This document shows positions 16,217 through 19,113 of a DNA stretch of 64,000 bases, one piece after another. This DNA comes from Vibrio crassostreae. GTDB lineage: Bacteria > Pseudomonadota > Gammaproteobacteria > Enterobacterales > Vibrionaceae. The DNA lies in NCBI RefSeq assembly GCF_024347415.1, contig NZ_AP025476.1:1488001-1552000 (forward strand), written 5' to 3'. Positions within the stretch are counted from its first letter, which is position 1, and every line of letters starts with the position of its first letter. The notes under the pieces were generated by a model, which ran no database searches, was not told where the DNA came from, and saw nothing but the letters and a program-made list of their open reading frames with translations. The translations under genes and the position numbers were made by a program.

Positions 16217-17032
16217 ATGTTGAAAATCGAATCTATTACCCCTCACATCGGTGCTCGTATCCACGGCGTCGATCTCGCTACATGCAGTGCGACTGAACTT
16301 GATGAGGTTTATCAGGCGCTTCTAACCCATGAAGTGATTTTTCTCGATGCTCAAACCCTTTCGCCACAACAGCATTTGATGATTGCAAAGCGGTTTGGGC
16401 AACTCGAACCAGCGCATCCGTTTTTTCCTCGCGTCGAACATGTGCCTCAGGTCTGTGTGATAGAAACAACACGTGGTAATGCCCCGATGGAAAGTTATTG
16501 GCATACCGACTTAACCTGGCGGGAGCTACCATCTAAAGCCTCTCTATTGCATGCTCAACATGTACCGGATGTCGGTGGCGACACGATTTGGTGTTCGATG
16601 ACCTCAGTGTTCGATTCATTAGATGAAAGCATGAAAGAAAAGCTAAGAGGCTTATCGGCAACGCATTCGTTAGTCGCGTTTGAGGGTATTGAATCGGACC
16701 AAATTGAGCTAGATTGGCATAAGTCGTTGCTGAAAACCGCGCAAGAAAATCCGCCAGTAGAACATCCTTTAGTACAAGTTCATCCAGAAACGGGCAAAGA
16801 GACGCTATATATCAACGAGCAATTTACCCGTTACATCAATGAACTCAAGCGTGAAGAGAGTGATTCACTACTTCGCCAGCTTTTTGAAATTGCACGACGA
16901 CCAGAGTATCAAGTGCGTTTCAAATGGAACAGGGGCTCAATGGCGATATGGGACAACAGGGTCACTCAGCATTATGCTGTGATTGATTACGGTGATACGC
17001 CAAGAAAAATGCACCGAGTAACAGTGACCTAA
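16217..17032 (+). CDS. TauD/TfdA-family 2-oxoglutarate-dependent dioxygenase
   Basis: This 271-residue enzyme has the iron-binding HxD pair (WHTDLTW, His96 and Asp98), the distal histidine (His252 in VTQHYAV) and the 2-oxoglutarate-anchoring arginine (Arg267 in MHRVTVT). Length and the N-terminal IGARIHGVDL segment match taurine dioxygenases. Members hydroxylate small acids such as taurine, alkyl sulfonates or chlorinated phenoxy acids. The neighbours (no ABC sulfonate transporter) give no hint of substrate, so I do not call it tauD. It appears transcribed alone. Confidence 0.9.
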   Translation: MLKIESITPHIGARIHGVDLATCSATELDEVYQALLTHEVIFLDAQTLSPQQHLMIAKRFGQLEPAHPFFPRVEHVPQVCVIETTRGNAPMESYWHTDLTWRELPSKASLLHAQHVPDVGGDTIWCSMTSVFDSLDESMKEKLRGLSATHSLVAFEGIESDQIELDWHKSLLKTAQENPPVEHPLVQVHPETGKETLYINEQFTRYINELKREESDSLLRQLFEIARRPEYQVRFKWNRGSMAIWDNRVTQHYAVIDYGDTPRKMHRVTVT

Positions 17033-17070
17033 GGTTGTAAATCAAGTACAAGTCGAAGCGCCTAAATATT

Positions 17071-17099
17071 TTGACTCATCGGTTAATGTGATTTATTTT
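17071..17099 (+). promoter_or_regulatory. sigma-70-type promoter of the ABC-F leader
   Basis: TTGACT (17071-17076) and TATTTT (17094-17099) are separated by 17 bases, a near-ideal spacing. Transcription would start around 17106, giving a leader of roughly 230 bases before the ABC-F start codon. Confidence 0.6.
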
Positions 17100-17142
17100 T
17101 AGCGCTAATGTTCAACTCAAGACAAACATAAGGAGGATTTTT

Positions 17143-17223
17143 ATGAAAGTGTGTGAATTTAACTTCGCGCATATTTTTTGGTACGACCAAAACTCAAGTT
17201 TTAACACTATCGTGCTGCGATAA
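17143..17223 (+). CDS. 26-residue leader peptide of the ABC-F gene
   Basis: An ATG at 17143 follows a perfect AGGAGG (17131-17136) with ideal spacing, and the frame closes at a TAA after 26 codons. The peptide runs MKVCEFNFAHIFWYDQ, then NSSFNTIVLR; it is hydrophobic and aromatic in the middle and has no known function. It lies between a promoter and the ABC-F gene. Its codons 12-20 contain the arms of two competing hairpins. This is the arrangement of leader peptides that act by ribosome stalling. Leader peptides of this size are easily missed by gene callers. Confidence 0.6.
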   Translation: MKVCEFNFAHIFWYDQNSSFNTIVLR

Positions 17224-17336
17224 CCAAAACTTGAGCGAAGCATTTCAATATAACCTTCAATAGAGTTTCTTCACTCTAGTTTACTTGGTTGTTGTCAGCG
17301 AATGACGACAGCGCTTTTTTGCGCTTGAAACTTGAG
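17176..17336 (+). promoter_or_regulatory. attenuator-like leader RNA of the ABC-F gene
   Basis: Competing structures are visible. TTTTGGT (17176-17182) pairs with ACCAAAA at 17186-17192 or with the copy at 17223-17229. CTCAAGTTTT (17193-17202) pairs with AAAACTTGAG (17226-17235) or, over nine bases, with AAACTTGAG at 17328-17336, which overlaps the ABC-F start region. TAGAGT (17261-17266) pairs with ACTCTA (17273-17278). TGTTGTCA (17290-17297) pairs with TGACGACA (17303-17310), followed by CGC and six Ts (17315-17320), an intrinsic-terminator shape just before the gene. Expression is probably controlled by leader translation. Confidence 0.55.
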
Positions 17337-17343
17337 TAAACAA

Positions 17344-19113
17344 ATGACTACATTAATATCTACATCATCCATTTCTTACGATCTAACATCATGCCGATTA
17401 TTTGATGGGCTTTCCTTTACCATTAAGAAAGGTGACCGCATTGGCCTTATTGGCAGTAATGGCTGTGGCAAAAGCACCTTACTACGTCTATTAAACAAAG
17501 ATTTACCAGACTATGTTGGTAGTGTTTCATTCGCCTCGTATGCTGAAGTCGCGCTTATTGAGCAACATCTCCCTAAACGACTGCTGACTATGTCGATGCT
17601 TGATGCCGTTGTCGATAACCTGCCACCAGAGATCCAATTATCCGAGCAATGGCGTGCTCAAATCATCTTGTCTAATTTAGGCTTTGACGAAAGCTATTGG
17701 GATCAGCCGATTGGCACCTTAAGTGGCGGTCAATACGCACGAGTACTGGTGGCAAGAGCCCTAATTGTCGAACCCGACGTTCTACTACTGGACGAACCGA
17801 GTAACCACTTAGATTTGCCAACCTTGCTTTGGTTAGAGCAGTTTCTGATGGATTGGAAGGGCACTTTTGTGATGGTGTCACATGACCAAAGGTTACTCGA
17901 TCATGTAACCAACTGTACTTGGGTACTGCGTGATAAAAAACTGCAAACCTTTAGTCAAACCTGCACACAAGCAAGGAAGGCTTTAGAGGAGAAGGACCGA
18001 GCTGATGCTGAAAGGCAAGAGGCGGAACAAAAGGAGATTAACCGCATTGAAAAGAGTGCGCAGCGATTAGCTATTTGGGGTAGGGATTTCGATAACGAAG
18101 GCCTCGCACGCAAAGCCAAAAGCATGGAGAAACGTGCCGCGGGTTTACGAACGACCATGACGCGTTTGGATACGATTGAACCATGGACACTAAGCCTGTC
18201 AGGTGAGTCAATGAAGGCTAATCGCTTACTTGAACTAGCTTCGGTGCCAATCGCCGCCGCACAAGATCAAGCGCCATTGTTCGAAGTTCTGTTCCAGCAG
18301 ATTAAGAGTGGTGATCGAGTCGCTATCTTAGGTAAGAACGGCGCAGGGAAATCTTCATTGTTGAAAGTGCTATGGGCAAGCTATCAAGCCTCTCAACTTG
18401 AAGATAATGGTTACTTCCATCCTCAAGCTGAAGTGGGTTATTACGACCAAAGCTTGAACCAACTGTGCGATGAACATTCTTTGATAGATTCGTTGTACCC
18501 GTTTTATCCTGTTTCTCAGGAAGCTAGAAAAATGGCTTTGATCAGCGCGGGTTTTTCTTATGAAAGACACGATCAAAAGATCGCTGAACTGAGTGGTGGT
18601 GAACGTTCCCGGCTACTGTTTGTCGGGCTATCTTTGGCTAAGTATCACTTCTTGTTGCTTGATGAACCAACGAACCACCTGGATATTGAAGGTAAGGAAG
18701 AGTTGGTGAACTGCTTAACTCAATTCGAAGGGGGGCTACTGTTGGTCAGCCATGATCGAGAGTTGATTGAAAAATCATGCAATCGATTCTGGTACATCAA
18801 TGATGGTCAACTTGTGGAAATGACTTACTTAGATGCGGTGTATGAGGCGATGTCTGTCGGTAATCAGGTCGTTAGCTTAGAGGCGAATGACACAGCGCCA
18901 AGCTCGGTGTTGTTATCCAAATCTGAGTTTATCGAAAATCACCACTCAAATACGACACAAAACGATGAAGAGTTGCTTTTGGAAAGGCTGTTGGAGTTGG
19001 AAGAGTTACTGACACAAGACCAGTCTCGAAAAGCAAAACATCAAAAGCCAGATCTTCAACATAAATGGCAGCAAGAAATAGAAACTATCAATATGAAATT
19101 GGAGCTTCGTTAG
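17344..19113 (+). CDS. ABC-F family ATPase (candidate ribosome-protection or translation factor)
   Basis: This 589-residue protein has two ATP-binding cassettes and no membrane segments. The first has GSNGCGKST, LSGGQ and LLLDEPSNHLDL; the second has GKNGAGKSS, LSGGERSR and LLLDEPTNHLDI. A long charged linker (about residues 200-290, rich in Glu, Lys and Arg) joins them, and a coiled coil closes the C-terminus (about 545-589). ABC-F proteins act on ribosomes; some free them from antibiotics, others are housekeeping. This one is not clearly Uup, EttA or YheS. A TTG at 17332 is an alternative start. The attenuator-like leader favours an inducible resistance-type role; that is inference. Confidence 0.88.
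   Translation: MTTLISTSSISYDLTSCRLFDGLSFTIKKGDRIGLIGSNGCGKSTLLRLLNKDLPDYVGSVSFASYAEVALIEQHLPKRLLTMSMLDAVVDNLPPEIQLSEQWRAQIILSNLGFDESYWDQPIGTLSGGQYARVLVARALIVEPDVLLLDEPSNHLDLPTLLWLEQFLMDWKGTFVMVSHDQRLLDHVTNCTWVLRDKKLQTFSQTCTQARKALEEKDRADAERQEAEQKEINRIEKSAQRLAIWGRDFDNEGLARKAKSMEKRAAGLRTTMTRLDTIEPWTLSLSGESMKANRLLELASVPIAAAQDQAPLFEVLFQQIKSGDRVAILGKNGAGKSSLLKVLWASYQASQLEDNGYFHPQAEVGYYDQSLNQLCDEHSLIDSLYPFYPVSQEARKMALISAGFSYERHDQKIAELSGGERSRLLFVGLSLAKYHFLLLDEPTNHLDIEGKEELVNCLTQFEGGLLLVSHDRELIEKSCNRFWYINDGQLVEMTYLDAVYEAMSVGNQVVSLEANDTAPSSVLLSKSEFIENHHSNTTQNDEELLLERLLELEELLTQDQSRKAKHQKPDLQHKWQQEIETINMKLELR

Follow-up and report, generated by a model that had tools for sequence, protein, structure and literature searches.

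A leader upstream of an ABC-F gene in Vibrio crassostreae and other Gram-negative bacteria is a probable ribosome-mediated translational attenuator

An ABC-F ATPase gene of Vibrio crassostreae, located in a stretch of 64,000 nucleotides (contig NZ_AP025476.1, positions 1,488,001 to 1,552,000; hereafter the window), is preceded by a 5' leader that probably functions as a ribosome-mediated translational attenuator with the logic of ErmC, whereby a stall on a translated short leader shifts the RNA between alternative folds and so uncovers the binding site of the next gene. The 311 bases between a taurine-dioxygenase-like gene and the ABC-F start codon (ATG at position 17344) contain a promoter-like site, a 26-codon leader with the sequence AGGAGG in front of it, and repeated segments based on CTCAAG and CTTGAG (Table 1). 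Attenuation is proposed on account of the conservation of the leader frame, compensatory changes in competing helices, a folding scan over ribosome positions and the co-occurrence of the leader with the gene. The support is thus partly drawn from sequence comparison (frame, covariation and, in the loci examined, an association of the leader with this gene alone) and partly computed (accessibility as a function of ribosome position). A first-pass annotation of the window, made from the sequence alone, had already suggested leader-coupled attenuation in front of this gene, and had named the conservation of frame and stems across relatives as a check; both are conserved, the opposite of the outcome that it had listed as adverse.

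Homologous ABC-F genes were gathered together with their upstream DNA from 60 of 196 genomes of the genus, 38 of 197 in a family sample and 32 of 295 in an order sample; the three samples overlap, and repeated genomes were counted once. The total was 102 upstream regions, two of which (L060 and L112) were set aside to leave 100 for the leader frame count, and a non-redundant alignment of 56 sequences was used for the structure counts.

Proposed mechanism

Four segments of the leader region would alternate between partners. In the free RNA, segment 4 with its weak ABC-F binding site would be hidden either by segment 3, with segments 1 and 2 paired to each other, or by segment 1, with a 2:3 helix nested inside. 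A ribosome reading the leader to its stop codon would cover segment 2, and the 3:4 helix would close. If a ribosome-targeting compound instead halted the ribosome at about codons 13-21, best near codon 19, segment 1 would be covered, so that segment 2, including the last leader codons, could form about 20 base pairs with segment 3 and leave the ABC-F start exposed. We infer the stalling itself, its cause (a peptidyl-transferase or tunnel drug) and the protection of the ribosome by the ABC-F protein.

Competing helices and their covariation

The RNA from leader to gene folds at -70.1 kcal/mol, as compared with a mean of -48.59 (sd 4.5) for dinucleotide shuffles (z of -4.80), and the mean folding z of 54 relatives is -3.39, with values below -2 in 45 of them (30 shuffles each). 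For the fold that combines 1:4, nested 2:3 and hairpins c and d, 85.4% of cells are paired in the 56 sequences versus 30-46% with slid partners, and the covariation score is 0.210 versus 0.136 in shuffled data; within hairpin c, position 17293:17307 is UA in 29 sequences, CG in 19 and UG in seven. The 2:3 helix extends past its CTTGAG core: a stretch over the final codons of the leader and its stop (CTGCGATAAYC) is paired with GRTTRTYGTCAGC, and this extended helix of about 20 base pairs has 90.5% of cells paired versus 20-48% in slid controls. At 17224:17288, C-G (26), U-A (26) and U-G (4) are found among the 56 sequences, and at 17215:17298 the counts are C-G 46, U-A 8, U-G 1 and other 1, the change being a synonymous switch of a leucine codon from CTG to TTG that is matched in segment 3. 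Such pairing accounts for the near invariance of Leu-Arg-stop at the leader end. Aeromonas-type sequences have CTCTTG for CTCAAG in segment 1, together with a matching change in segment 4. In the small hairpin at the leader end, compensatory change is seen in just one of five pairs.

The 3:4 helix performs poorly on the fixed alignment because its register differs between clades, and it was therefore also tested with an alignment-free swap test, in which the duplex energy of a sequence's own segments is compared with that of segments exchanged between species (2000 permutations). In 24 divergent representatives, own segments paired better than swapped ones for 1:2 (-14.3 versus -13.4, seven permutations being as good), 1:4 (-13.4 versus -11.1), 2:3 (-13.7 versus -11.9) and 3:4 (-11.4 versus -9.3), with none of the 2000 permutations as good in the last three cases; the control pair 1:3 (944/2000) and the pair 2:4 (564/2000) gave no signal in this set. 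Covariation thus points to mutually exclusive helices among four segments, one of them bearing the ABC-F binding site, the evidence for 3:4 coming from the swap test and not from the fixed alignment. Alternative pairings with shared arms (17192-17202, 17226-17235 and 17328-17337) had been described in the first-pass annotation and are substantiated by these comparisons; the annotation had missed segment 3 (17274-17299), the hairpin at codons 3-10 of the leader and the helix that segment 3 forms with the leader end. The third copy of the pairing element, previously thought to overlap the ABC-F start, is real, but it precedes the conserved start (ATG 17344, as judged from the alignment of relatives) and overlaps the binding site rather than the start codon; an alternative TTG at 17332 in the list of open reading frames falls inside segment 4. 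Three sequences of a neighbouring genus (L062, L065, L066) carry an insertion of about 25-45 nt at the place of hairpin d.

Ribosome position and access to the ABC-F start

Ribosome positions were scanned in 53 sequences by folding only the RNA downstream of the ribosome, with codon numbers assigned backwards from the leader end to match a leader of 26 codons. The core of the ABC-F Shine-Dalgarno (SD) sequence had a mean unpaired probability of 0.14 in the free RNA and 0.11-0.13 with the ribosome before codon 13, and this probability rose to 0.33-0.40 with the P site at codons 13-21, with its maximum at codon 19. The window RNA behaves in the same manner: from 17213 onward it is predicted to fold to 2:3 with segment 4 free (-37.1), and from 17236 onward to 3:4 with the site hidden (-30.1).

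Several results weigh against such a switch. In the scan, a ribosome at the leader stop leaves the ABC-F site incompletely closed (0.25), and the computed opening is greatest outside codons 13-21 in 10 of the 53 sequences. Folding that permits pairs across the ribosome gives a modest opening (0.405 in the free RNA, 0.480 at codon 18 and 0.388 at codon 26, for 54 sequences and a wider measured stretch). The Klebsiella locus also forms 2:3, but the z of its open-state fold is just -1.67. Two of five measures of the fold with 1:4, 2:3, c and d are unremarkable, namely further pair types (37 versus 37.0) and double-change pairs (12 versus 8.7, reached in 21 of 500 shuffles). On the fixed alignment, the fold with 1:2 and 3:4 alone pairs 73.4% of cells versus 34-47% with slid partners, 3:4 by itself pairs 62% and 47%, and the two helices show little covariation (0.104 versus 0.095 shuffled). 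Finally, the 2:4 pair also beat swapped pairs in the set of all 56 sequences (15/2000), in which the swap test may be inflated by relatedness.

The leader peptide

The 26-codon frame with a perfect AGGAGG, as first annotated, is retained in nearly all relatives: 98 of the 100 upstream regions have a frame free of internal stops with a length of 26 (77 regions), 27 (9), 28 (11) or 29 codons (1), and it is broken only in L027 and L056. In 42 matched pairs compared over codons 2-15, differences at the first, second and third codon positions number 36, 34 and 79, and the synonymous share of changed codons is 0.398, versus 0.222 (sd 0.034) when those changes are placed randomly. Given this excess at third positions and of synonymous changes and the retention of the frame, it is very probable that the leader is translated and that selection acts on it as a reading frame. 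No canonical SD sequence (GGAG, GAGG or AGGA) lies 18 nt or less from the ABC-F start in any of 54 relatives. The hairpin in the early leader scores -8.20 kcal/mol with its own arms versus -5.75 with swapped arms (0 of 5000 permutations, 23 sequences); it co-varies as clearly as the switch itself, which raises the question of a role in pacing the ribosome or the polymerase. One genome (G142) has two copies of leader plus ABC-F (L056 and L246): in one copy the leader frame is broken and the ABC-F frame open, in the other the leader frame is intact and the gene fragmented.

Alternative modes of control

Among other explanations, the best placed is that the leader represses translation, yet Rho exerts most of the control in the cell by terminating the untranslated ABC-F message, in the manner of toiL-topAI. 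A hidden binding site would yield an untranslated message, on which Rho can act, and PMC12121999 provides a precedent; such termination would supplement the switch without replacing it, and its predominance is considered unlikely.

The first-pass annotation had placed control in a terminator, that is, a stem followed by six Ts, and an intrinsic terminator disrupted by a stalled ribosome would resemble the arrangements of msrD and vmlR. Both elements are present in the window (stem at 17288-17312, Ts at 17315-17320), and a terminator-like site is found in 9 of 54 relatives versus 4.1% of shuffles. However, the other 45 relatives lack the site and 49 lack the run of six Ts (present in five), even though the flanking helices are kept; the computed folds place the Ts of the window in the loop of hairpin d, and it is the binding site that is covered by segment 4, which is what control of initiation would predict. 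Transcription termination by a U-tract terminator was therefore rejected as the conserved mechanism and has very little probability of being the main one, the evidence fitting control of translation initiation instead, while in the window itself it may act as an added layer on top of the switch. The promoter, earlier described as near-ideal, is present but matches at 9 of 12 positions (TTGACT-17-TATTTT), and such sites are no rarer than chance in the stretch (2 found versus 2.4 expected); what argues for it is that promoter-like sites (at least 9 matches) occur within the 81 nt before the leader SD in 36 of 54 relatives versus 9% of shuffles.

A further alternative is that the leader senses the level of an amino acid or of charged tRNA, in the manner of trp, instead of a drug, as any stall at codons 13-21 would open the switch. 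Nevertheless, the leader of the window has no run of one amino acid, Ser 18 is constant among variable residues at codons 16, 17 and 19-22, and in the true hits examined the controlled gene encodes an ABC-F protein and not a biosynthetic enzyme, so that amino acid sensing appears highly improbable. The least credible proposal, to which we give almost no weight, is a cis-acting RNA thermosensor or riboswitch with an incidental short frame, since the strong folding of the RNA on its own is set against a frame kept in nearly all relatives, the synonymous excess over codons 2-15, a strong SD sequence and the location of segment 1 inside the frame.

With regard to the trigger of the proposed attenuator, codon 18 encodes Ser in all 54 non-redundant leaders and Ser or Ala in all 98 (counted from the leader end), Ala being read at this position in the locus sequence of the shorter leader of L141; where segment 1 has changed, the Ser codon is TCT. 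At codon 12, all 54 leaders have Phe, Tyr or Leu. A macrolide stall of the +X+ type was rejected as the general trigger because the R/K-x-R/K motif at codons 17-19 occurs in only 36 of 98 leaders. Phenicol- and oxazolidinone-type drugs prefer Ala, Ser or Thr. As a guess, a peptidyl-transferase inhibitor with context dependence would fit a peptide in which Ser 18 is penultimate while the P site holds codon 19; Ser 18 is also partly fixed by segment 1.

Taxonomic distribution and link to the gene

The first-pass annotation regarded the system as a Vibrio version, a restriction that does not hold, as the leader is also found in Klebsiella, Rahnella, Pantoea, Aeromonas and Burkholderia. When gene and leader searches were compared in the 196 genomes of the genus, all 60 genomes with the ABC-F gene also had the leader; the leader matched in 64 genomes, the additional four being weak hits (26-37 bits) with no ABC-F match and with parB-like genes by eye. 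In the order, a covariance model of segments 1-2 (R1), which was used for the leader searches, matched once in each of 44 of 394 genomes, and an ABC-F gene lies downstream in 30 of the 31 fetched loci. The remaining locus (L143, E value of 5e-4) has no downstream ABC-F gene and was taken as a chance match. In the order sample the leader was present in 31 of 32 genomes with the gene, the exception (G574) having a gene at 42% identity.

Besides the window, 21 loci were tested, and 10 of them carry the leader: Klebsiella pneumoniae (two records), V. campbellii, Ewingella, Rahnella, Pantoea soli, Aeromonas caviae, Morganella morganii, Burkholderia lata and Proteus mirabilis, the last with a weak match (26.7 bits). 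The other 11, all distant ABC-F loci, had no leader match. The upstream regions of L058, which is from the genus of the window, and of L238, a V. campbellii record, look nearly identical, so that close kin of V. campbellii are among the members of this genus. The Klebsiella locus had no DNA match among 5,426 E. coli genomes, and several copies in the plasmid collection are located on large Pantoea and Rahnella replicons, where some records are chromosome-sized. Rfam covariance models gave no match to positions 16900-17500 up to an E value of 1.

The sister ABC-F genes of Alphaproteobacteria (L252-L269, L156-L159, L243) have a different leader frame, with a core GP..AL in 23 of 23 loci (a count without a chance control) and RQRGP in 15. 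In 10 of the 23, ACCAG occurs after the leader stop and again just before the gene, with GGTCTG or CTGGTC between in most loci. These leaders share the layout of the Vibrio-type leader and are unrelated to it in sequence.

The ABC-F protein

The product is an ABC-F ATPase by its two ABC cassettes with intact motifs (motif columns invariant in 38 sequences) and by the long two-helix interdomain linker of the predicted structure (predicted local distance difference test score of 87.8). The best 24 rows of a comparison with PDB structures are all ABC-F proteins, and the model resembles resistance and housekeeping members about equally. Among the best 25 NCBIfam rows, all ABC-F families scored below their cut-offs, with Vga, Msr, Sal, Lsa, OptrA and CplR far below, and the general model NF000355 gave 337.4 versus 380 needed. 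The protein had been noted as unlike EttA, Uup and YheS; consistent with this, it falls far below the curated cut-offs of these families and also does not reach that of YbiT, and the same genome encodes separate EttA-, Uup-, YheS- and YbiT-like proteins above them (PRK10636 and PRK15064 presumably correspond to YheS and YbiT, respectively). The YbiT-like proteins are two (L149 and L152), one on each of two contigs. A further unclassified ABC-F protein of this genome (L144, G000:C1:2061528-2063060; 524 aa) has NF000355 as its best NCBIfam model (356.8 versus 380 needed) and is distant from the window clade (27% identity).

The window protein may belong to PAF1, a Gram-negative subfamily of resistance type that was predicted in 2019 from phylogeny and patchy distribution (PMC6723617). 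The distribution fits, considering the 60 of 196 genomes of the genus, the presence in Klebsiella and the lack of DNA matches to the Klebsiella locus in the E. coli genomes searched.

Table 1. Features of the ABC-F locus, in window coordinates
Feature	Position	Strand	Evidence or remark
Taurine-dioxygenase-like gene	16217-17032		Upstream neighbour; 287 bits versus cut-off 313
Probable sigma-70 type promoter (TTGACT, 17 nt, TATTTT)	17071..17099	+	9/12 matches; enriched before the leader in relatives
Leader Shine-Dalgarno sequence AGGAGG	17131..17136	+	GGAGG at most 16 nt from leader ATG in 50/54 relatives
Leader peptide gene, very probably translated, 26 codons + TAA (MKVCEFNFAHIFWYDQNSSFNTIVLR)	17143..17223	+	Frame intact in 98/100 relatives
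Hairpin in early leader (codons 3-10)	17149..17172	+	Arms co-vary
Segment 1 (ACTCAAGTTTT), within leader codons 17-20; predicted partner 2 or 4	17192..17202	+	Shared arm, swap test, covariation
Small hairpin at leader end (TATCG/CGATA), alternative to 2:3 helix	17208..17222	+	91.4% of cells paired (56 sequences)
Segment 2 extended, leader end + AAAACTTGAG	17214..17235	+	Predicted partner 3 (open state); 3' part alternatively with 1
Segment 3; predicted partner 2 (open state) or 4 (closed state)	17274..17299	+	Swap test, window folds, extended-helix count
Hairpin c (TTGTCA/TGACGA), within closed 3:4 fold	17292..17308	+	95.8% of cells paired
Hairpin d (AGCGC-T6-GCGCT), loop contains T run	17310..17325	+	Window folds
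Segment 4 (AAACTTGAGTAAAC), carries weak ABC-F binding site; predicted to be hidden by 1 or 3	17328..17341	+	Covariation, folds
ABC-F ATPase, 589 aa	17344..19113	+	Family searches, motif columns, structure comparison

Comparison with known systems

As in ErmC, a translated short leader precedes complementary segments with alternative folds, and a stall, here inferred, would free the downstream binding site (erm induction is summarised in PMC11264731); unlike in ErmC, the switch of the window would control an ABC-F gene in Gram-negative bacteria, and its open-state helix takes in the final codons of the leader together with the stop. The vmlR leader of Bacillus subtilis likewise has an upstream open reading frame and alternative folds before an ABC-F gene, with an SD-sequestering hairpin that is broken by the induced fold, but it uses an intrinsic terminator and polymerase pausing, whereas the window system has no conserved terminator (PMC9226507). 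For msrD, a leader peptide before an ABC-F gene and stalling as the presumed common switch are set against transcription attenuation by a Rho-independent terminator, while here the leader is 26-29 codons long and the binding site would be covered by pairing (PMC10314930). The toiL-topAI system of E. coli is a Gram-negative case of an upstream open reading frame in which several drug classes relieve a structure occluding the binding site, but toiL controls a toxin-antitoxin pair and not an ABC-F gene (PMC12121999). The consulted part of the PAF1 paper mentions no leader (PMC6723617). In the literature covered, no description was found of this leader family's gene, its host range or the inclusion of a leader end in the open-state helix, translational attenuators being already known as a kind.

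Implications

The occurrence of the putative switch from Vibrio to Klebsiella, Aeromonas and Burkholderia suggests, on sequence grounds, an inducible and hitherto undescribed Gram-negative defence against ribosome-targeting drugs. A broader proposal, which we consider possible although somewhat less than even in its chances, is that the whole proteobacterial ABC-F clade represents an unnoticed inducible ribosome-protection system, pathogens included, and that two unrelated leader families arose before the same gene, one in Vibrio, Enterobacterales, Aeromonas and Burkholderia and the other in Alphaproteobacteria; Ser 18 may then be penultimate at a halt on codon 19, pointing to a phenicol- or oxazolidinone-like natural inducer. 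If the ABC-F protein belongs to PAF1, the co-varying, ribosome-sensing leader would be independent evidence that this subfamily is switched on by translation inhibitors. The leader could be used as a reporter to find the inducer, and so the natural drug class, and as a new RNA family for listing such ABC-F genes. Silent but inducible protection of this type could escape susceptibility tests that are run without the inducer.
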